From Bacteroidales bacterium (GTDB lineage Bacteria > Bacteroidota > Bacteroidia > Bacteroidales > UBA932), in contig JAFQFD010000038.1 in assembly GCA_017415715.1 (NCBI GenBank), positions 1 through 64,000 on the forward strand: DNA of 64,000 bases. Reading direction: 5' to 3'. Positions 19,765 to 50,906 of this stretch are shown here, in pieces; within the stretch, counting starts at the first letter, position 1; every line of letters starts with the position of its first letter. A model generated the notes under the pieces. That model was not told where the DNA came from. It saw only the letters and a list, made by a program, of their open reading frames with translations, and searched no databases. A program made the translations under genes and the position numbers.

Positions 19765-20679
19765 ATGAAGAAACTGATGATCATACTGGGCCCCACAGCT
19801 GTAGGCAAGACCGACTACAGCATCGAGACTGCGCTCAGATATGGTTCCCCGGTGATCTCCTGTGACTCCCGTCAGATATATAAGGAAATGACCATAGGCA
19901 CGGCTGTGCCTTCTGCTGAGCAGCTCGCCGCTGTTCAGCATTATTTTATCCATTCACATACGGTCACCCAGCTATACACGGCCGGTAAATACGAACTGGA
20001 GGCCCTTGAACTCATAAACCGCTTGTTTGCAGAGGGACATGAGACCCTTGTCATGGCAGGCGGTTCGGGTTTCTATGTTGATGCGCTGGTGAACGGTCTG
20101 GACGACTTTCCGTCGGCAGACCTGAAGCTTCGGGGCGAACTGATGACACGTCTGCAGGAAGAGGGTGTCGAGGCCCTCAGGCTTGAGCTGAAAGCCCTTG
20201 ATCCTGAGAGTTATGCGACCATAGACATCGCAAATGGTCAGCGCGTTGTCCGTGCTCTCGAGGTGTGCCTCATGACCGGCAGGCCGTTTTCGTCATTCAA
20301 GACGGCGGCTCGCAAATCCCGTGATTTTGAAATAGAAAAGATCGGTCTGGTCAGACCACGTGAAGTTCTATATGACAGGATCAACCGTCGCGTGATCCAG
20401 ATGATCGATGACGGTCTGGTCGAGGAGGTCCGCTCGCTCACACAGTATCGCGACCTCGCGGCCCTTCAGACCGTAGGCTATAAGGAAATATTCGACTGGT
20501 TTGACTACCAGGACGGAAAAGTCTCTGCAGAAGGCTGGACTCCACAGACTCCGGGAGACGGTCCAGTCACCACGCTCGACCGCGCCATAGAACTCATCCA
20601 GCGCAACACCCGCCACTACGCCAAGCGCCAGCTCTCCTACTGGAACCGCGACAAATCCATCCGCTGGCTGGAGCTCTAG
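19765..20679 (+). CDS. miaA: tRNA dimethylallyltransferase
   Basis: It transfers a dimethylallyl group to A37 of tRNAs that read UNN codons. The 304-residue protein has the P-loop GPTAVGKTDYS (about residues 8-18), the SCDSRQIYKEMTIGTAVPS substrate motif and the conserved GGSGFYV segment. The C-terminal region ends with the usual NTRHYAKRQLSYWNRD motif. Length is normal. The start codon abuts a REP-like palindrome, so the ribosome loads on repeat-derived sequence. A 51-bp-period repeat array begins 26 bases after the stop. Confidence 0.96.
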   Translation: MKKLMIILGPTAVGKTDYSIETALRYGSPVISCDSRQIYKEMTIGTAVPSAEQLAAVQHYFIHSHTVTQLYTAGKYELEALELINRLFAEGHETLVMAGGSGFYVDALVNGLDDFPSADLKLRGELMTRLQEEGVEALRLELKALDPESYATIDIANGQRVVRALEVCLMTGRPFSSFKTAARKSRDFEIEKIGLVRPREVLYDRINRRVIQMIDDGLVEEVRSLTQYRDLAALQTVGYKEIFDWFDYQDGKVSAEGWTPQTPGDGPVTTLDRAIELIQRNTRHYAKRQLSYWNRDKSIRWLEL

Positions 20680-20705: not shown

Positions 20706-20845
20706 TCAAAAGCACAAAAAAGCCCTCTGGTGTGCTTTTAACCCTGAAATATGCAGTCAAAAGCACAAAAAGGGCCCAATATGTGCTTTTAACCCGAAAA
20801 TATGCGTTCAAAAGCACAAATATGCCCGTTTTTGTGCTTTTGGCA
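20706..20845 (+). repeat. 51-bp-period hairpin array, three units upstream of Y1 transposase 1
   Basis: Units start TCAAAAGCAC at 20706, 20757 and 20808, exactly 51 bp apart. Each contains a 32-bp hairpin: arms AAAAGCACA and TGTGCTTTT around a 14-base loop that differs between units. A 19-base spacer follows. Two more units lie just after the transposase gene (21934 and 21985). Confidence 0.92.
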
Positions 20846-20862
20846 CTTTAGAAAATAATGTA

Positions 20863-20870
20863 TAGCTTTG
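20863..20870 (+). promoter_or_regulatory. Candidate -7 box for Y1 transposase 1
   Basis: TAGCTTTG fits TAnnTTTG and lies 18 bases after the upstream hairpin array. A leader of about 115 bases would precede the ATG at 20992; it contains GC-rich inverted stretches. Confidence 0.5.
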
Positions 20871-20991
20871 CATCTGTGTGACATCGCGCGAACATTGTTA
20901 TGTACGCAAGCTCTGCAGGCCGTTCTGGCCGGGGTCTCTGAAGCCCCTATCAAGGCGCGCATTAAATATTAACTAAATATAATGTGTAGCT

Positions 20992-21930
20992 ATGGTTAAA
21001 GAACCAATAGCGGTCTCGTTCTGGGATAAAGAGCGTGACTGCGAATATATATTCAATACATCCGGTCCATTCTGGCATGTATATACCGACGGACATTCGT
21101 CTGATATGATCTTCACTTGCAAAGAGGACATGGTGATGGCGATGAATATCATGGGAGTGTGTTCTACATATTTCCCCGATGTCGGCATATACACCTTTGT
21201 CCTGATGAATAATCATGTTCATAACATAATGTCCGGCAGACGGGAGAGGTGCGAGCAGTTCTTCGAGATGGTCAAAGGGAAGTTGTCGAGGTGTTTTGCC
21301 CGAAACGGAAAGGTGGTCAATCTGAAGGACTTCAATTGCCAGATGATTGAAATCACTTCTCTGCAAAGTCTTCGCAATGAAATAGCATATGTCAACCGCA
21401 ATGGCTTCGTCGCCATATCTTCATGCACTCCATTCTCCTATCCATGGGGAGCAGGAGCATGCTTTTTCAACCCTTTTCTAGGAAGACTTTCGTCAGTGAG
21501 GTTTGACGACTTGACCATCAGGGAGAGAAGACGTATTTCTCATAGCAGCAGCCTGGACTTTGCCTCGGGTTCATTAATGGTGCATGATGGAGTTATCTTG
21601 CCATCTTCATTCTGTCGGATCAAGGAGGCAGAAGCTCTGTTCAGGAATGCTCACCATTATTTTCAGCATCTTTCAAGAAGATTTGAGGCGTATAGTGAAA
21701 TAGCATCTCGCCTGCATGAGAAAGTATTCATTACCGATGAGGAAATGTATTCGGCGGTCTGCGCGATCTGTCAGAAATCATATAATGTCAAGCACCCGGG
21801 GCATCTGTCTGCAGAGAAGAGGGTAGAGCTGGCCAGAAGAATGAAGTTTGAATATAATGCATCCAACCGTCAGATCCGGAACATACTGAAACTGGATAAG
21901 ACCATAGTTGACGAACTGTTCCCTGACTAG
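20992..21930 (+). CDS. REP-associated Y1 transposase (RAYT-like, IS200/IS605 superfamily) 1
   Basis: This is a 312-residue single-domain HUH endonuclease of the Y1 transposase type. The metal-binding HUH motif is NNHVHNIMSG (H75, H77), and the likely nucleophile is Y133 in EIAYVNRNGF, the position matching Y-x-x-N-P/G of RAYTs. A C-terminal helix-turn-helix-like segment (about 277-312, ARRMKFEYNASNRQIRNIL) extends beyond the catalytic core. RAYTs are single-copy, non-self-mobilising enzymes thought to spread REP/REPIN repeats. Here the gene sits inside five copies of a hairpin repeat at 51-bp spacing, which are its probable substrates. It is intact. Confidence 0.85.
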   Translation: MVKEPIAVSFWDKERDCEYIFNTSGPFWHVYTDGHSSDMIFTCKEDMVMAMNIMGVCSTYFPDVGIYTFVLMNNHVHNIMSGRRERCEQFFEMVKGKLSRCFARNGKVVNLKDFNCQMIEITSLQSLRNEIAYVNRNGFVAISSCTPFSYPWGAGACFFNPFLGRLSSVRFDDLTIRERRRISHSSSLDFASGSLMVHDGVILPSSFCRIKEAEALFRNAHHYFQHLSRRFEAYSEIASRLHEKVFITDEEMYSAVCAICQKSYNVKHPGHLSAEKRVELARRMKFEYNASNRQIRNILKLDKTIVDELFPD

Positions 21931-21933
21931 CAA

Positions 21934-22020
21934 TCAAAAGCACAAAAAAGCCCCAATATGTGCTTTTAACCTCTAAATATTATGTCAAAAGCACAAAACC
22001 GGTCGATTTTGTGCTTTTAG
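21934..22020 (+). repeat. 51-bp-period hairpin array, two units downstream of Y1 transposase 1
   Basis: Units start at 21934 and 21985 (51 bp apart) with the same AAAAGCACA/TGTGCTTTT arms and 14-base loops as the upstream units. The first begins four bases after the transposase stop codon. Confidence 0.92.
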
Positions 22021-22044: not shown

Positions 22045-24246
22045 TCAGTTTGCGACTTCGCAGAGGAATTTTATGCGGACGAGGCGGACTTCCATTTCGT
22101 CGTAGTCGTCTTTGAGGTCTTCCATCACGGTGGCCAAGTCGTCTGACTCGGCTTCGTTGTGGAAGTAGTCGTAGATCTCCTCTATCACGTCTTCGTCGAG
22201 CGTCTGCTCCAGATAGTAGTCCAGATGGAGTTTGGTGCCGGAGTATACTATCGCCTCGATCTCGTCGAGAAGTTCTTCCATCTCAAGTCCCTTTGCGTCG
22301 GCGATGTCCTCCAACGGCAGTTTCCTGTCTATGCTCTGGATGATGAACACCTTGTTTACCGACTTGTTGACGATCGACTTCATGACAAAGTCGTCAGGGC
22401 GTTCTATCTCATTCTCTTCCACATACTTGGCAATCAGCTCAAGGAACTCCTTGCCGAACTTCTTCGCCTTTCCTTCTCCCACTCCCTGGCAGTTCTTCAG
22501 CTCGTCTACGGTGATAGGGTACATTATGGACATGTCCTCGAGAGACGGGTCGCCGAAGATCACCCAAGGCTGCAGGCCGCGCTTGCGCGCCACATCCCTG
22601 CGCAGATCCTTCAGCATCGCCAGCAGAGTCGGGTCTCCTCCTCCGCCGCCGCGTGCTGCAGCCGCTGCTGCAGGATCGTCGTCGTCATCCTCTCCGTCAG
22701 CGAACTCCCTGTCCTCGGTGAGCATTAGCGTATAAGGCTTCTCAAAGAATGCGCGTCCCTCATCAGTCACGGATATGAGTCCATATGACTCGATGTCCTT
22801 ATAGAAGAAATGCAGCACGAGGCCCTGATGGATAACGGCGTTCCAGAATCTTACCGAGTGGTCCTTGCCGGCTCCGAAGAGCTCCAGCTTGTCGTGCTTG
22901 TATGACTTTATTATCGAATTCGACTCTCCGGCAAGGATGTTCGCCAGATGTTCCATCTTGAATCTCTCCGGCAGAGTCTCGATCAGTTCGATGACCATGG
23001 CCATCTCCTCGCGTCCGTCAAACTGCTTCTTAGGGTGCAGACAGTTGTCGCACGCTCCGCAGTTGTCGACTTCGTAATTCTCTCCGAAATAGTTCAGCAG
23101 CAGCTTTCTGCGGCATGAGTTGGACTCGGCATAGGCCACAGTCTCCACGAGCAGCTGCTTTCCGATCTCCTGCTCGGCGATCGGCTTGCCCTGCATGAAC
23201 TTCTCCAGCTTCTGTATGTCCTTATAACTATAGAATGTTATGCACTGTCCCTCTCGTCCGTCACGACCTGCTCGTCCGGTCTCCTGATAATATCCCTCAA
23301 TGCTCTTCGGGATGTCGTAATGTATGACGAAACGCACATCCGGCTTGTCGATGCCCATTCCGAATGCTATCGTCGCCACAATGACGTCAATCTCCTCCAT
23401 CAGGAACTTGTCCTGGTTCTCGGCTCTTGTCTTCGCATCAAGACCTGCATGGTATGGCGCCGCCTTGATGCCGTTGATGTTCAGCAGTTCAGCAAGCTCT
23501 TCCACCTTCTTTCTGCTGAGGCAGTAGATGATGCCTGACTTGCCCGGATTCTGCCTGATGTACTTGATTATGTCTCTCTTCGGGTCTGACTTGTCCCTTA
23601 TTTCATAATATAGGTTAGGCCTGTTGAACGACGACTTGAACACAGTCGCGTCAGGCATGCCGAGGTTCTTGAGAATGTCGCTCTGCACCTTCGGTGTCGC
23701 AGTCGCTGTCAGCGCTATGATGGGCGCCACGCCTATTTCCTCTACTATATTCCTTATCCTTCTGTATTCAGGTCTGAAATCGTGTCCCCACTCGGAGATG
23801 CAATGAGCCTCGTCCACAGCATAGAACGAGATCTTGATCTCCTTGAGCATCGCCACATTCTCTGCTTTTGTGAGCGACTCCGGAGCGACATAAAGCAGTT
23901 TGGTCGCGCCGGACATGAGGTCGTTGCGCACTTCTGCTATCTGCGCCTTGCTCAGTGATGAATTCAGGAAGTGGGCTATGCCGTCATTGCCCGAAACGAA
24001 TCCTCTGATGGCGTCGACCTGGTTCTTCATCAGGGCGATGAGAGGTGATATGACTATGGCTGTACCCTCCATGACGAGCGCCGGAAGCTGGTAGCAAAGG
24101 GATTTGCCGCCTCCGGTAGGCATGAGAACAAAGGCATTGTTCTTATCTACGAGGTGTCTGATGATACGTTCCTGGTCGGCCTTGAATGAGTCAAAGCCGA
24201 AGAATTCTTTCAATTTGGCATGAAGCACGGCAGAGTCTATATTCAT
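22045..24246 (-). CDS. recQ: ATP-dependent DNA helicase RecQ
   Basis: This is a 3'-5' DNA helicase for recombination and fork repair. The 733-residue protein has Walker A MPTGGGKS (K48), a DEAH box (DEAHCISEWGHDFRP, about residues 142-156), the helicase C-terminal domain with the QETGRAGRDG motif, an RQC zinc site (C..Y...CGACDNC, about 377-402) and an HRDC domain (about 540-615). Between RQC and HRDC is a low-complexity linker of Asp, Ala and Gly runs. A further C-terminal stretch of about 120 residues, rich in acidic residues, extends past HRDC. It is transcribed away from the FKBP gene. Confidence 0.96.
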   Translation of the reverse strand: MNIDSAVLHAKLKEFFGFDSFKADQERIIRHLVDKNNAFVLMPTGGGKSLCYQLPALVMEGTAIVISPLIALMKNQVDAIRGFVSGNDGIAHFLNSSLSKAQIAEVRNDLMSGATKLLYVAPESLTKAENVAMLKEIKISFYAVDEAHCISEWGHDFRPEYRRIRNIVEEIGVAPIIALTATATPKVQSDILKNLGMPDATVFKSSFNRPNLYYEIRDKSDPKRDIIKYIRQNPGKSGIIYCLSRKKVEELAELLNINGIKAAPYHAGLDAKTRAENQDKFLMEEIDVIVATIAFGMGIDKPDVRFVIHYDIPKSIEGYYQETGRAGRDGREGQCITFYSYKDIQKLEKFMQGKPIAEQEIGKQLLVETVAYAESNSCRRKLLLNYFGENYEVDNCGACDNCLHPKKQFDGREEMAMVIELIETLPERFKMEHLANILAGESNSIIKSYKHDKLELFGAGKDHSVRFWNAVIHQGLVLHFFYKDIESYGLISVTDEGRAFFEKPYTLMLTEDREFADGEDDDDDPAAAAAARGGGGGDPTLLAMLKDLRRDVARKRGLQPWVIFGDPSLEDMSIMYPITVDELKNCQGVGEGKAKKFGKEFLELIAKYVEENEIERPDDFVMKSIVNKSVNKVFIIQSIDRKLPLEDIADAKGLEMEELLDEIEAIVYSGTKLHLDYYLEQTLDEDVIEEIYDYFHNEAESDDLATVMEDLKDDYDEMEVRLVRIKFLCEVAN

Positions 24247-32638: not shown

Positions 32639-33733
32639 ATGAAATACGACCTGTTCATAAGTTATTCGAGGAAGGATTTCGAGGAAGTGTCGGCTCTTAT
32701 CGAAAAGATAAAGGCTGCGCTACCCGGCATTTCATATTGGTTCGACATCGACGGCATTGAGAGTGGTGACGAGTTCGAAGACAAGATCATCTCGGCAATC
32801 GACAACTCATCATATGTCCTCTTCGCTCTGTCGGAAAATTCCATCGGCTCCCAATGGACTAAAGATGAGGTGATGTATGCCAAGAATACAGACAAGAAAG
32901 TCATCCCCGTCCTCCTCAAAGGAGCCCAGATGAAAGGCTGGTTCCTCTTCAAGTTCGGTCGCGTCGATTGCATAGACTCCACAAACCAGCTCCAGATGGA
33001 CAAACTCCTCCACAATCTGGCGACCTGGACAGGCCAGCCGATTCCAGAGCAAAAGCCTGCGCCAGTCGTAGAGACGGCTCCGACTCAGAAGATCCAGTCA
33101 GAGACATTGTGCCCATGCGGAAGCGGTAAACTTTTCAAGGATTGCCACGGAAGGTCTGTTGCGCTGACTCCAGCTCCGGTTGTAGGGCCGACCCCTACAC
33201 TGGCCCCGAAACCATCAGAAAAGACATGGAAAGTGGGTGACTACTACAATGTCGGCGGAAAGGAAGGTGTGGTGTTCTGGGTTGATGAGACTGGAAAGCA
33301 TGGCAAGATCGTGAGTATGGATCAGGCGGAGTTGCAATGGTGTACAAAGGATGAGTATAATAAGGGGTTGACAGGTATTGCAACAGATTCCTCAAATGGA
33401 ATGAATAATCTTCGGTCTATAATGAAGATTGCGGCCTGGAAAGATAAATATCCGGCATTTGCATGGTGTGCAGATCATGGCGATGGCTGGTATCTTCCTG
33501 CCATAGATGAACTGAAGGAACTTCTGTTGAACGATGAAGTACATTCCAAAGTCAATGGAACACTTGAACAAAAGAGGGGATCTGTAATGTACTCAAAGGG
33601 ATCTTACAAAAGGTATAGGTCTTCTACTGAAGAAGATAAGCGGTGTGCGTGGCTCGTCCTTATGTACGGTGGCAGCACGAGCCACTACCTTAGGTACCTC
33701 AATTACTATGTGCGTGCAGTGTCCGCTTTTTAA
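32639..33733 (+). CDS. TIR domain - SEC-C motif - DUF1566 fusion protein
   Basis: This is a 364-residue protein without a signal peptide. Residues 1-130 form a TIR domain (YDLFISYSRKD at the start; W73 and E77 in SQWTKDEVMYA match the position of the NADase catalytic Glu). A Pro-rich linker leads to a SEC-C zinc motif (CPCGSGKLFKDCHG, about 158-171). Residues about 198-364 form a DUF1566/Lcl-like domain with a C-type-lectin-like look (YLPAIDEL, RSSTEE, VRAVSAF end). TIR proteins with intact Glu can cleave NAD+ or signal in anti-phage defence. The lectin-like domain would act as sensor; both roles are inferred. Its end resembles target proteins of diversity-generating retroelements, but no reverse transcriptase is in the window. 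It stands alone between murB and an SPFH gene. Confidence 0.8.
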   Translation: MKYDLFISYSRKDFEEVSALIEKIKAALPGISYWFDIDGIESGDEFEDKIISAIDNSSYVLFALSENSIGSQWTKDEVMYAKNTDKKVIPVLLKGAQMKGWFLFKFGRVDCIDSTNQLQMDKLLHNLATWTGQPIPEQKPAPVVETAPTQKIQSETLCPCGSGKLFKDCHGRSVALTPAPVVGPTPTLAPKPSEKTWKVGDYYNVGGKEGVVFWVDETGKHGKIVSMDQAELQWCTKDEYNKGLTGIATDSSNGMNNLRSIMKIAAWKDKYPAFAWCADHGDGWYLPAIDELKELLLNDEVHSKVNGTLEQKRGSVMYSKGSYKRYRSSTEEDKRCAWLVLMYGGSTSHYLRYLNYYVRAVSAF

Positions 33734-34684: not shown

Positions 34685-35998
34685 ATGAGTTCATTTGTAG
34701 TAGAAGGCGGTTATAAGCTCAGCGGAACCATCAGGCCGCAGGGCGCCAAGAACGAGGCTCTGCAGATAATCAGCGCGGTGCTTCTGACCAAGGAGGAGGT
34801 GACGATCTCCAACATTCCGGAGATTCTTGACATCAAGAACCTTATCATCCTCCTTGAGGGAATGGGCGTCAAGGTCACCCGTCACGAGAAGGGCGTATAC
34901 ACATTCAAGGCGGACGAGATCGATGCTGAATATGTGATGAGCGCAGACTTTGTGGCCAAGTGCGCCAAGCTCCGTGGCTCCGTCATGGTCGTAGGACCGC
35001 TCCTCGCCCGTTTCGGCAGGGCGTATTTCCCTAAGCCGGGCGGAGATCAGATCGGCCGCCGCAGGGTCGATACGCATATCTTAGGCTTCATGAACCTCGG
35101 TGCCGAGCAGGAGTATGACATGGACAAGAGGGCCTTCTATCTCCATCTGCCGGAGGGCAGGAAGCTCCAGGGCCGCTATATGCTCCTGGACGAAGCGTCG
35201 GTTACCGGTACTGCCAACATCGTGATGGCTGCTACATTGGCAGAAGGCGTGACAACTATCTATAACGCAGCGTGCGAGCCATACCTCCAGCAGTTGTGCA
35301 AGATGCTGGTGAGGATGGGCGCAGACATCAAGGGCATAGGTTCTAACCTCCTCACAATCACAGGAGTGAAAACACTTGGAGGCACGCAGCATACCATACT
35401 TCCGGACATGATCGAGATCGGCTCGTTCATAGCTCTGGCAGCCATGAACAGAAGCTCCATCACTATCAAGGATGTGGCGTATGATGAACTGGGAATGATT
35501 CCGGATGTGTTCCGCAAGCTCGGAGTGAAACTCGAGCGTCGCGGAGATGACATCTTCGTTCCGGAGCAGGAAAGCTACGAGATAGACTCGTTCATGGATG
35601 GTTCGATTCTGAATATAGCAGATGCACCATGGCCTGGCATTTCACCTGACCTCCTCAGTGTGATCCTCGTGATGGCAACCCAGTGCAAGGGCAGCGTCCT
35701 CATCCATCAGAAGATGTTCGAGAGCCGCCTCTTCTTCGTGGACAAGCTCATAGACATGGGAGCGCAGATCATCCTCTGCGACCCGCACAGAGCTGTCGTG
35801 GTCGGTCACGACCACCGCTACCAGCTCCGCGCCGGCAAGATGGCCTCGCCGGACATCCGCGCCGGCATCGCCCTGCTGATCGCGGCAATGTCAGCCAAGG
35901 GCACAAGCGTCATCAGCAACATCGATCAGATCGACAGAGGCTACGAAGACATAGACATCCGCCTCAACGCCCTCGGCGCAAGAATCACCCGACAGTAA
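34685..35998 (+). CDS. murA: UDP-N-acetylglucosamine 1-carboxyvinyltransferase with Asp in place of the catalytic Cys
   Basis: It adds enolpyruvate from PEP to UDP-GlcNAc, the first committed step of peptidoglycan synthesis; murB, the next step, lies 2 kb upstream. The 437-residue protein has the usual two-domain EPSP-synthase-like fold, with the substrate motif RPQGAKNEALQ at 18-28. The catalytic loop reads KPGGDQIGRRRVD. D121 replaces the Cys (Cys115 in Escherichia coli numbering) that fosfomycin alkylates. Known Asp variants in Mycobacterium, Chlamydia and Borrelia are active and insensitive to fosfomycin, so the same is expected here. The stop codon lies inside a bidirectional terminator. 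Confidence 0.97.
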   Translation: MSSFVVEGGYKLSGTIRPQGAKNEALQIISAVLLTKEEVTISNIPEILDIKNLIILLEGMGVKVTRHEKGVYTFKADEIDAEYVMSADFVAKCAKLRGSVMVVGPLLARFGRAYFPKPGGDQIGRRRVDTHILGFMNLGAEQEYDMDKRAFYLHLPEGRKLQGRYMLLDEASVTGTANIVMAATLAEGVTTIYNAACEPYLQQLCKMLVRMGADIKGIGSNLLTITGVKTLGGTQHTILPDMIEIGSFIALAAMNRSSITIKDVAYDELGMIPDVFRKLGVKLERRGDDIFVPEQESYEIDSFMDGSILNIADAPWPGISPDLLSVILVMATQCKGSVLIHQKMFESRLFFVDKLIDMGAQIILCDPHRAVVVGHDHRYQLRAGKMASPDIRAGIALLIAAMSAKGTSVISNIDQIDRGYEDIDIRLNALGARITRQ

Positions 35999-49621: not shown

Positions 49622-49729
49622 GTGACATCTAACTCCTTGATCCTCAACGGGAAGATTGTGGCCGCGTGCTCCCCGTTGGCGGCACGCGTTAGCTGGTATG
49701 TTAGTGACTACTAGTGTGTTATGTGTCAT
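49622..49729 (+). repeat. 108-bp palindromic element (REPIN-like), left of Y1 transposase 2
   Basis: It starts GTGACATCTAA and ends with TTATGTGTCAT, inverted ends of the family, with central stem GCGTGC...GCACGCG. The transposase stop codon (minus-strand TGA, 49726-49728) lies within the repeat's right end. It is in the opposite orientation to the copy at 50799. Confidence 0.92.
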
Positions 49730-50643
49730 AATTTGATGTGCAGAAATTTGCATATCTGCCATGGTGTGGCGTTGAAATGAATCTTGATCCACTCGAAAAT
49801 CTTCCTTTTCTTATCTTCCGGCATAATAGTGACTTTTCGTATTTCTACATGGGACATATGTTTGCTCAGTTCGTTCAGTACTTTTGTGAATATTGTGTGG
49901 GATGAGTAATCTTTTTCTTCACTGATGTCGTGTTCGCTGCCAGTGTTTGCATTCATAGCAATAATCATTTCCTCGTATGTCCCATAATATGACAGGACCG
50001 CATCGAAATCTATTGGCAGATATGCTTTAATGACCTGATCAACGAACTGTTCAGTCTCTTCATGTGACAGTCTTTTCATCATGCGTTTCAAATGGACATA
50101 TTTAAGAGGCAGATTTTGTTTTGACAATTCTCTGACCTCCCTGATCGCATTTCTCAGATGTCTTGAAGCCTTGCTTGATATGTATGGCTTTGAAAATGGA
50201 TGATCCGATGCGGCATATGCCAGAAAATTCCATCGGTAGCCCTGCGCCAGGGAGCATATATTCTTTTCTACAGGGTTGTTGCCGACATAATTGATGGCGC
50301 TTCGGATTGCCTTGTCTCCCCATTTGGGAGCACTACCGAAATTCTTATGAAACATTTTACCCTTTCTTCCGATGGCGTGATTGTATTCCTGTACATACCA
50401 GGCAGTGTATCTGTCAACAAAAGCACTCAATTCCTTGCGGTTTTCAGTCTTGGTCAATGAGTGAATGTGGTCGTACATCAGACATAGTCCGAGAATACAG
50501 ACATCAGCGCATTTTGCACAGACGCTGAAAATAGTGAAGAATACCAGAAAGTCTTCATAACAATAAAAGATATTGTTCCAGTTGACGGTTCTTTGGTAGA
50601 CGTGGTTGACAGCATCCCGATAAAATTTTCTCCTTCTCCTCAT
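49726..50643 (-). CDS. REP-associated Y1 transposase (RAYT-like, IS200/IS605 superfamily) 2
   Basis: This is a 305-residue HUH endonuclease of the Y1 type. The HUH motif is MYDHIHSL (H59, H61) and the likely nucleophile is Y119 in AINYVGNNPVEK, which closely matches the RAYT Y-x-x-N-P motif. An additional C-terminal helical segment (about 275-305, IFEWIKIHFNATPWQICKFL) resembles the helix-turn-helix of the first transposase. It is flanked by inverted 108-bp repeats, whose left copy contains the stop codon. A candidate -7 box (TAGATTTG, 50663-50670) lies upstream. It is intact and is probably the enzyme that spreads the 108-bp family. Confidence 0.88.
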   Translation of the reverse strand: MRRRRKFYRDAVNHVYQRTVNWNNIFYCYEDFLVFFTIFSVCAKCADVCILGLCLMYDHIHSLTKTENRKELSAFVDRYTAWYVQEYNHAIGRKGKMFHKNFGSAPKWGDKAIRSAINYVGNNPVEKNICSLAQGYRWNFLAYAASDHPFSKPYISSKASRHLRNAIREVRELSKQNLPLKYVHLKRMMKRLSHEETEQFVDQVIKAYLPIDFDAVLSYYGTYEEMIIAMNANTGSEHDISEEKDYSSHTIFTKVLNELSKHMSHVEIRKVTIMPEDKKRKIFEWIKIHFNATPWQICKFLHIKL

Positions 50644-50662
50644 AGCTTAAATATTTTATTCA

Positions 50663-50670
50663 CAAATCTA
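50663..50670 (-). promoter_or_regulatory. Candidate -7 box for Y1 transposase 2
   Basis: Minus-strand TAGATTTG fits TAnnTTTG, 20 bases upstream of the ATG. The remaining 50671-50798 is AT-rich with no other signal that I recognise. Confidence 0.5.
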
Positions 50671-50798
50671 TAGGAGAAAAATGGAATATCAGGTAAAGAA
50701 AAGTGACATGAATATAAGAAAAAGAAAAATCTTATATAAAATAAATAAAAATCTGCAGTTCCGGGTCAAAGCCCATAGATGTGAAGTGTTTTCGCAAT

Positions 50799-50906
50799 GT
50801 GACACCTAATTCATTGATTGATAGATAAATACCTATATACGCGTGCCGCCAATGGGGAGCACGCGTGTATAGGTAAGTTGTTGATTTAGAGTGTGTTATG
50901 TGTCAC
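50799..50906 (-). repeat. 108-bp palindromic element (REPIN-like), right of Y1 transposase 2
   Basis: It starts GTGACACCTAA and ends TTATGTGTCAC, about 12-bp inverted ends, with central stem CGCGTGC...GCACGCG. It has exactly the same length as the left copy and is inverted relative to it. Confidence 0.92.

Follow-up and report, generated by a model that had tools for sequence, protein, structure and literature searches.

The window, by which we mean the whole stretch of 64,000 nucleotides analysed here, carries at 20992..21930 on the plus strand a gene for a RAYT-like Y1/HUH transposase homologue of 312 aa. It lies between a miaA-type IPP transferase gene on the left (19765..20679, plus strand; PF01715, E 2e-71) and a recQ-type helicase gene on the right (22045..24246, minus strand; DEAD, RQC and HRDC domains), both of which are kept in the related genome G414. 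Five hairpins, given without strand, surround the transposase, each with 9-bp arms AAAAGCACA and TGTGCTTTT around a 14-nt loop. Three lie upstream, at 20708..20739, 20759..20790 and 20810..20841, and two downstream, at 21936..21967, 5 nt past the transposase stop codon, and 21987..22018; on each side a hairpin begins 51 bp past its predecessor, leaving 19-bp spacers at 20740..20758, 20791..20809 and 21968..21986. A sequence-only reading had described five such hairpins with exact 51-bp spacing on each side, a different loop in every unit and no further arm copies in the window, all of which we confirm; its hairpin places were right, but the starts it gave (20706 and the others) fall 2 nt before the 9-bp arm, the exact matches beginning at 20708, 20759, 20810, 21936 and 21987. 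The pattern AAAAGCACA-N14-TGTGCTTTT thus has 5 exact matches in the window, against 0 in 100 dinucleotide shuffles, and single-strand folding of both flanks, on both strands, is far stronger than in shuffles (z -5.3 to -6.5). When the hairpins were compared with known structured RNAs, the sole Rfam match was to a microRNA family at E 0.39, far below the cut-off.

Ahead of the transposase gene, a leader at 20910..20950 (plus strand) contains two small stems, GGCC-GUUCU-GGCC and GGGG-UCUCUGAAG-CCCC, and is common to six other loci. Among the 7 sequences compared, 3 of 10 pairs show a two-sided change that keeps pairing and 1 pair is broken once, modest evidence that the stems are kept by pairing. 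The leader is possibly a translational control element.

The window protein has the HUH motif N-H75-V-H77 and a catalytic Tyr133 within YVNRNG, and this HUH and Tyr core, as in RAYTs, is invariant in 36 aligned sequences (M72, H75, H77, Y133, R136, N137 and Y150). In its Y motif the N is kept and P is replaced by G; some distant homologues have YVLRNP or YILRNP. The protein alone has no Pfam match above cut-off, and its match to the NCBIfam REP-associated tyrosine transposase model (E 0.0066) is under the model's cut-off. We assign it to the family because its homologues match RAYT and Y1 models, 9 of the 36 matching the NCBIfam model (best E 3.1e-9) and 6 of the 36 Pfam Y1_Tnp. A profile search of solved structures gave a weak match, in the HUH region only, to a transposase, PDB 2xm3 (E 0.044), which we take to be ISDra2 TnpA. 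The long C-terminal half, in which no Pfam match rises above cut-off, is possibly a helix-turn-helix.

Homologues at E<=1e-20 are found in 79 of 199 sampled genomes of the window's family, the window's own included. Among 296 genomes spread evenly over the phylum, few of them from the window's own order, only the own genome has a match at E<=1e-10. Named genomes queried with the single window protein yielded no relatives; queried with a close alignment, they yielded 74 loci, titled Bacteroidales, Bacteroidia, Rikenellaceae or Candidatus Egerieousia and, with few exceptions, labelled as MAGs. Carriers of this transposase family are uncultured Bacteroidales of the gut.

A Y1 gene with direct hairpins to its left and right might point to an insertion sequence of the IS200/IS605 kind, one that would move as a whole, gene and array together, with the hairpins acting as several left and right ends; in one relative the gene does sit elsewhere. 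The G498 homologue (56% identical over residues 7-201) is not between miaA and recQ and adjoins the equivalent of window 34685-35998, presumably a murA-type gene; the gene on its far side differs from the one at that place in the window, and, with an open frame of only 263 aa, it may be inactive. Against such an element, the window's genome, in an assembly ~86% complete, holds 7 transposase matches including the window's own, the closest paralogues being only 43% identical, a low copy number and low paralogue identity as in RAYTs. The near-identical mobile copies of IS200/IS605 are therefore missing, so that, as far as this assembly goes, the gene is no multi-copy insertion sequence. In G414, moreover, a transposase with 60% identity occupies the same miaA-recQ site, which implies a long-resident gene. 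We regard a mobile gene-plus-array as very unlikely.

The paralogues of the window's genome have hairpins of their own. A second Y1 gene in the window, at 49726-50643 on the minus strand (region 49645-50875), encodes 305 aa above the Pfam Y1_Tnp cut-off and has another hairpin, CGCGTGC-N12-GCACGCG, on either side, at 49663 and 50840. Elsewhere in the genome, the arms are GTGGACA at locus L037 (contig C33), CGCTCAACGG at L038 (C6), where the steps are 61-62 bp and not 51, and TTTACGGA at L036 (C12). Near the C12 transposase, G380 (L264:3232-3310) differs from L036:1184 by a 78-bp insertion in which no arm hairpin is visible. A further paralogue, on C24, is 27% identical to the window protein and scores above the Pfam cut-off. 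As another observation on the window, the predicted protein at 32639-33733 begins MKYDLFISYSRKDFEEV and is presumably TIR-domain-like; the segment 32464-34677 that holds its gene is unmatched at L250, the corresponding locus of G431.

To establish how hairpins and transposases are related, 149 transposase loci were taken, from which 15 duplicates were removed, leaving 134; the own-genome Y1 genes of C13 and at 50 kb are outside this set. Hairpins were scored by a common 7-base arm within 800 bp on each side, or less at contig ends. At least two same-arm hairpins flank the gene at 79 of the 134 Bacteroidales loci, with hairpins on both sides at 56 and three or more at 40, whereas control flanks 1600-2400 bp off have same-arm hairpins at 0 of 41 loci and shuffled flanks, in an earlier run on 75 loci, in 0 of 375 cases. 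At the sensitivity used, the other 55 loci show no same-arm hairpin family. The proposal that hairpins and transposase belong together is thereby borne out, and these 79 loci, together with the intergenic copies described below, give the arrangement known from RAYTs, a gene flanked by its own hairpins.

The arms differ widely among loci (GTGCAAA, CGTCCAT, CGGTGAG and TTGTCAC, among others), and the step between hairpins nevertheless stays near 51 bases while the arms change from gene to gene. Of 117 same-side steps, 74 are 50-52 bp and 20 are 100-104 bp; in all, 109 fit n x 51 +-(n+1), compared to about 25% expected if steps were uniform. The hairpin span ranges over 24-38 bp while the pitch stays at 50-52 (41 loci), although the two are slightly correlated (r 0.31). 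The 51-bp rule belongs to the window's clade, where 49 of the 54 loci that have same-side pairs show a step of 49-53 or 100-105; in the distant clade B, hairpins occur at 11 of 23 loci and such a step at 1 of 2 same-side loci. Arrays can be large, with 11 units at L089, about 12 at L065 (52 bp) and about 20 at L085, and a 50-bp pitch at L096; some are built of near-identical 51-bp or alternating 102-bp units.

Arm sequence tracks transposase similarity, clearly for close relatives and weakly overall: a Mantel comparison of arm similarity and protein identity over 79 loci gives rho 0.149, a value reached by 1 of 1000 permutations. Among locus pairs at 70-90% protein identity, 63% of 19 share arms, compared to 8% of 85 at 50-60% and 1% of 1737 at 30-40%. 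The arms are also specific to the genome: those of L085 have 52 matches in genome G114 against 0-4 in 15 other genomes (reversed control 0-4), and those of L089 have 35 in G172 against 0-2 in 15 others (reversed control 0-2). The G498 homologue sits among hairpins with GAAAGCAC arms, which the dispersed sites of that genome share. In G414, three hairpins upstream and two downstream are laid out as in the window, at 52-bp steps, and are of two types, AAAAGCACA/TGTGCTTTT and AAAAGAACA/TGTTCTTTT, which we read as compensatory substitution in the arms within a single array. The base pair adjoining the arm on its outer side shows only suggestive covariation (9 TA, 6 CG, 3 CA, 2 TG; p 0.065).

A closer look at loops and spacers bears on orientation, and with it on a classical REPIN or BIME, that is, inverted REP pairs moved by a RAYT, simply in Bacteroidales. 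The window's own pairs gave no decision. Adjacent loops at 41 loci are more alike in direct orientation at 30, inverted at 7 and tied at 4, with mean identities of 0.65 and 0.39. Spacers were compared in 8 arrays from two relatives: in 7, neighbours match better directly (0.42-1.0 against 0.12-0.37), and the remaining one, L255 at the G498 transposase, alternates. There, next-but-one spacers have 0.91 identity, and neighbours match a little better inverted (0.40) than direct (0.32), as inverted pairs would have it. In P. fluorescens, by comparison, 93% of 430 doublets are inverted, and two REPIN groups have spacings of 71 and 110 bp, according to the sections of PMC3116915 used here; group-specific spacings of this kind differ from the single pitch found across our families. 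The GT[AG]G foot of canonical REPs occurs in only 6 of 252 hairpins (3 of 79 loci), against a background of 8%. Dispersed doublets, one transposase per repeat family and clusters at the gene are shared with P. fluorescens as described in those sections, and classical REPINs are nonetheless quite unlikely.

These patterns of likeness in loops and spacers imply direct-orientation growth of the arrays, in increments of 51 and of 102 bp. A one-unit step is seen directly at the C22b site, where the window's genome and its sister G437 differ by exactly 51 bp, leaving one fused hairpin. Slippage between 15-bp direct repeats would explain this difference equally well and may account for part of array growth. 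Copying by 51-bp steps, as the sequence-only reading had supposed, is thus consistent with the 51- and 102-bp changes visible in arrays and at C22b, but these may be plain slippage.

That reading had also called for a genome-wide search of the arm-N14-arm pattern and for a test of whether copies cluster near the transposase. In the window's own genome there are 12 exact copies of the window arms and 29 at <=3 mismatches, with 0 for the reversed-pattern control. Arrays do lie at the gene, but of the 29, only 5 are in the window, while 22 form 11 dispersed pairs and 2 are single; the two unpaired 3-mismatch matches (C14 and C32) look like chance and are excluded from the copies. All 11 further sites are pairs, ten at 51 bp and one (C1) at 48, which argues that the unit of spread is a two-hairpin element. 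By script, 10 of the 11 are intergenic, and the eleventh, at C9, lies inside a long open frame yet upstream of the likely true start, which has a lipoprotein-like signal. Convergent genes flank 4 of the 11. The C9 pair (L026:1475-1557) lies directly upstream of this lipoprotein gene, presumably for an efflux-type membrane fusion lipoprotein-like product, and may affect its expression.

The boundaries of the dispersed unit were examined by aligning 10 of the 11 pairs, each turned for best fit, with the 48-bp pair at C1 left out. Information is close to 2 bits at most positions of the arms, drops in the loops and spacers, and reaches background about two bases beyond the outer arms. Homology thus ends at the hairpin feet, and what is dispersed is the pair.

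Other genomes show the same pitch away from the transposase. In G114, 50 of the 52 matches were listed, of which 17 are at the transposase and 33 were used for off-locus steps; among the matches listed, 21 of 22 such steps are 51 bp and one is 102. In G172, of 35 matches, 11 are at the transposase, 20 entered the step count and 4 single matches with 2 mismatches were set aside; 10 of 11 off-locus steps among the matches listed are 51 bp and one is 55. With the window arms or near variants, sites with at least two hairpins make up 10 of 14 in G437, 9 of 9 in G431, 7 of 8 in G498, 1 of 1 in G380 and 0 of 1 in G414, and all 38 steps at the dispersed sites of these five genomes are 51 bp. Single-hairpin sites, at <=4 mismatches, account for 4 of 14 in G437, 1 of 8 in G498 and 1 of 1 in G414. 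Among 398 genomes of the family, a sample that G437, G431, G498 and G414 are outside, the exact-arm doublet pattern is found in the own genome only.

Numerous copies unlinked to the transposase would, on the sequence-only reading, argue against a transposase-repeat unit, and in part such copies exist. G437 (~71% complete) has 24 hairpins, with locus L194 kept out of the total as a duplicate of L239, and 5 homologues, the nearest 52% identical with TAAATCC arms; G431 (~74% complete) has 19 hairpins and 4 homologues, the nearest 41% identical. By coordinates, none of the listed hairpins in these incomplete assemblies lies <=3 kb from any of the 9 detected homologues. Flanks were read for 2 of the 5 homologues in G437 and 1 of the 4 in G431. 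A G498 array (L254:1383-1771), 8 units long with a pitch of exactly 51 bp, has no homologous transposase in the 3.3 kb around it.

Seven orthologous pairs could be compared with G437. The share of changed positions is 9/252 for arms, 25/196 for loops, 17/131 for spacers and 132/1562 for flanks, so that arms changed less than loops plus spacers (42/327; Fisher p 9e-5) and less than flanks (p 0.005). This slower change suggests that loops drift while arms are held by selection or conversion. At the older C1 site, arms have changed more than loops in G498 (11/35 and 5/28), and in G414 the counts are 5/36 for arms and 7/28 for loops. A clean empty site was sought at C1: G380 is without the C1 pair, but another terminator-like hairpin is in its place. 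G431, also without the pair, likewise carries another terminator-like hairpin there, which implies that some pairs may now serve as terminators.

Several of these observations would suit host elements, either bidirectional terminators or protein-binding sites, that change by slippage, the transposase being a bystander or domesticated user. The C22b difference fits deletion between 15-bp direct repeats, the terminator-like replacements at C1 and the 4 of 11 sites between convergent genes fit terminators, the G498 array of 8 units stands without a nearby transposase homologue, and arms are constrained at dispersed sites. Against them, same-arm hairpins flank homologous transposases at 79 of 134 loci but are seen in 0 of 41 control flanks, the arms are specific to genome and transposase, and slippage does not predict one pitch for unrelated arms. 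Host elements of this kind are, on balance, an unlikely explanation.

We therefore turn to the reading that we favor. Seen at the level of sequence are the transposase association, the locus-specific arms, the 51-bp pitch and the sharp-edged dispersed pairs, as well as slower arm change at the seven orthologous pairs and one 51-bp step between sister genomes. Quite probably, these belong to a REPtron-like system in which an arm-recognising Y1 enzyme mobilises or maintains two-hairpin units. The cognate repeat would be a palindrome of about 32 bp, with recognition information in its conserved arms and a largely free loop, and the dispersed element would be two hairpins 51 bp apart, mostly direct in the family, spread to intergenic sites. 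The element would be amplified in tandem by 51- or 102-bp steps beside the transposase and in certain other places.

As to enzyme activity and the reason for 51, we infer the following. The enzyme would bind the arms in single-stranded DNA, probably the lagging-strand template, a step suggested by analogy with the studied TnpA_REP enzymes, by arm specificity and by arm constraint. It would then cut near the hairpin feet and paste two-hairpin units, a movement to which the sharp ends of the dispersed pairs point. The constancy of the pitch suggests a ruler, which may be set by two enzyme subunits holding two neighbouring hairpins. Some copies have probably been adopted as transcription terminators. 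More tentatively, and as a conjecture that we find plausible rather than probable, this may be a third kind of REP system, so far Bacteroidales-only, in which one complex holds two direct hairpins, so that 51 nt is a geometric ruler that persists as the arm code drifts; in that case the two-hairpin unit would be a minimal IS200/IS605-like left-end/right-end element, with arms selected at dispersed sites.

These observations bear on the spread of REP sequences, on the nature of the unit that moves and on the reason why hosts retain RAYTs. With dozens of transposases that have different arm codes and one spacing, recognition (arms) and geometry (pitch) become separable experimentally. They also show that regular arrays of hairpins, constant in their arms and variable in their loops, can form next to a transposase and should be told apart from CRISPR and from random tandem repeats. 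Among the papers listed, judged by titles and abstract openings, none deals with such hairpin arrays in Bacteroidales, which is not proof of absence, and the sections of the RAYT/REP papers compared describe no fixed pitch.

Among known systems, IS200/IS605 elements (ISDra2, IS608) share the HUH/Y1 enzyme and hairpins on both sides in the same strand sense; in contrast, our locus has no near-identical gene copies, has many hairpins per side and has hairpin pairs dispersed without the gene. TIRYTs and TIRtrons, largely subclass 2.1, resemble it, in the parts of PMC3733652 drawn on here, in a longer Y1 protein with a C-terminal extension and in flanking repeats of which some are self-complementary, with dimers or clusters elsewhere. 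Subclass 2.1 is reported to be without REP-like hairpins and to have GGGG[AT][CG]A[CG] inverted repeats, which does not agree with many short hairpins that have different arms and a fixed pitch, with AAAAGCACA arms in the window.

The nearest label for the window enzyme is TnpA-Y1 subclass 2.6. The sections of PMC6006769 compared here describe this subclass, RAYT group 5, from Bacteroidetes, with the NH[LIV]H motif, atypical flanking secondary structures and copies elsewhere in the genome, all of which are like our case, and mention no regular pitch. The protein does not fit: those sections give a median of 179 aa, YIH[QN]NP and a median of 82 residues from HuH to Y, whereas the window protein has 312 aa, YVNRNG and 56 residues.

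The system works like RAYT/REP and yet departs from canonical REPs (by the GT[AG]G foot), from REPINs and BIMEs (by the inverted pair) and from subclass 2.6. In what the consulted portions of PMC6006769, PMC3116915 and PMC3733652 relate, each REP transposase has its own repeat, several such transposases are possible per genome and doublets act as units. Compared to REPtrons as known from these portions, ours lack the GT[AG]G foot, have doublets that are mostly direct where this can be told, keep one pitch near 51 bp across many unrelated arms and encode an enzyme of about 310 aa with Y..RNG where REPtrons have Y---NP. For two group 3 RAYT enzymes, the consulted part of PMC8266576 reports that some loop positions matter, and the E. 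coli enzyme as described there fits constant arms with variable loops. Like the RAYT/TnpA_REP REPtrons in those partial accounts, the Bacteroidales loci place a Y1 gene among hairpins of its own family, with further copies between genes; doublets serve as units, tandem clusters occur, and a genome has several transposases, each with its own repeat.
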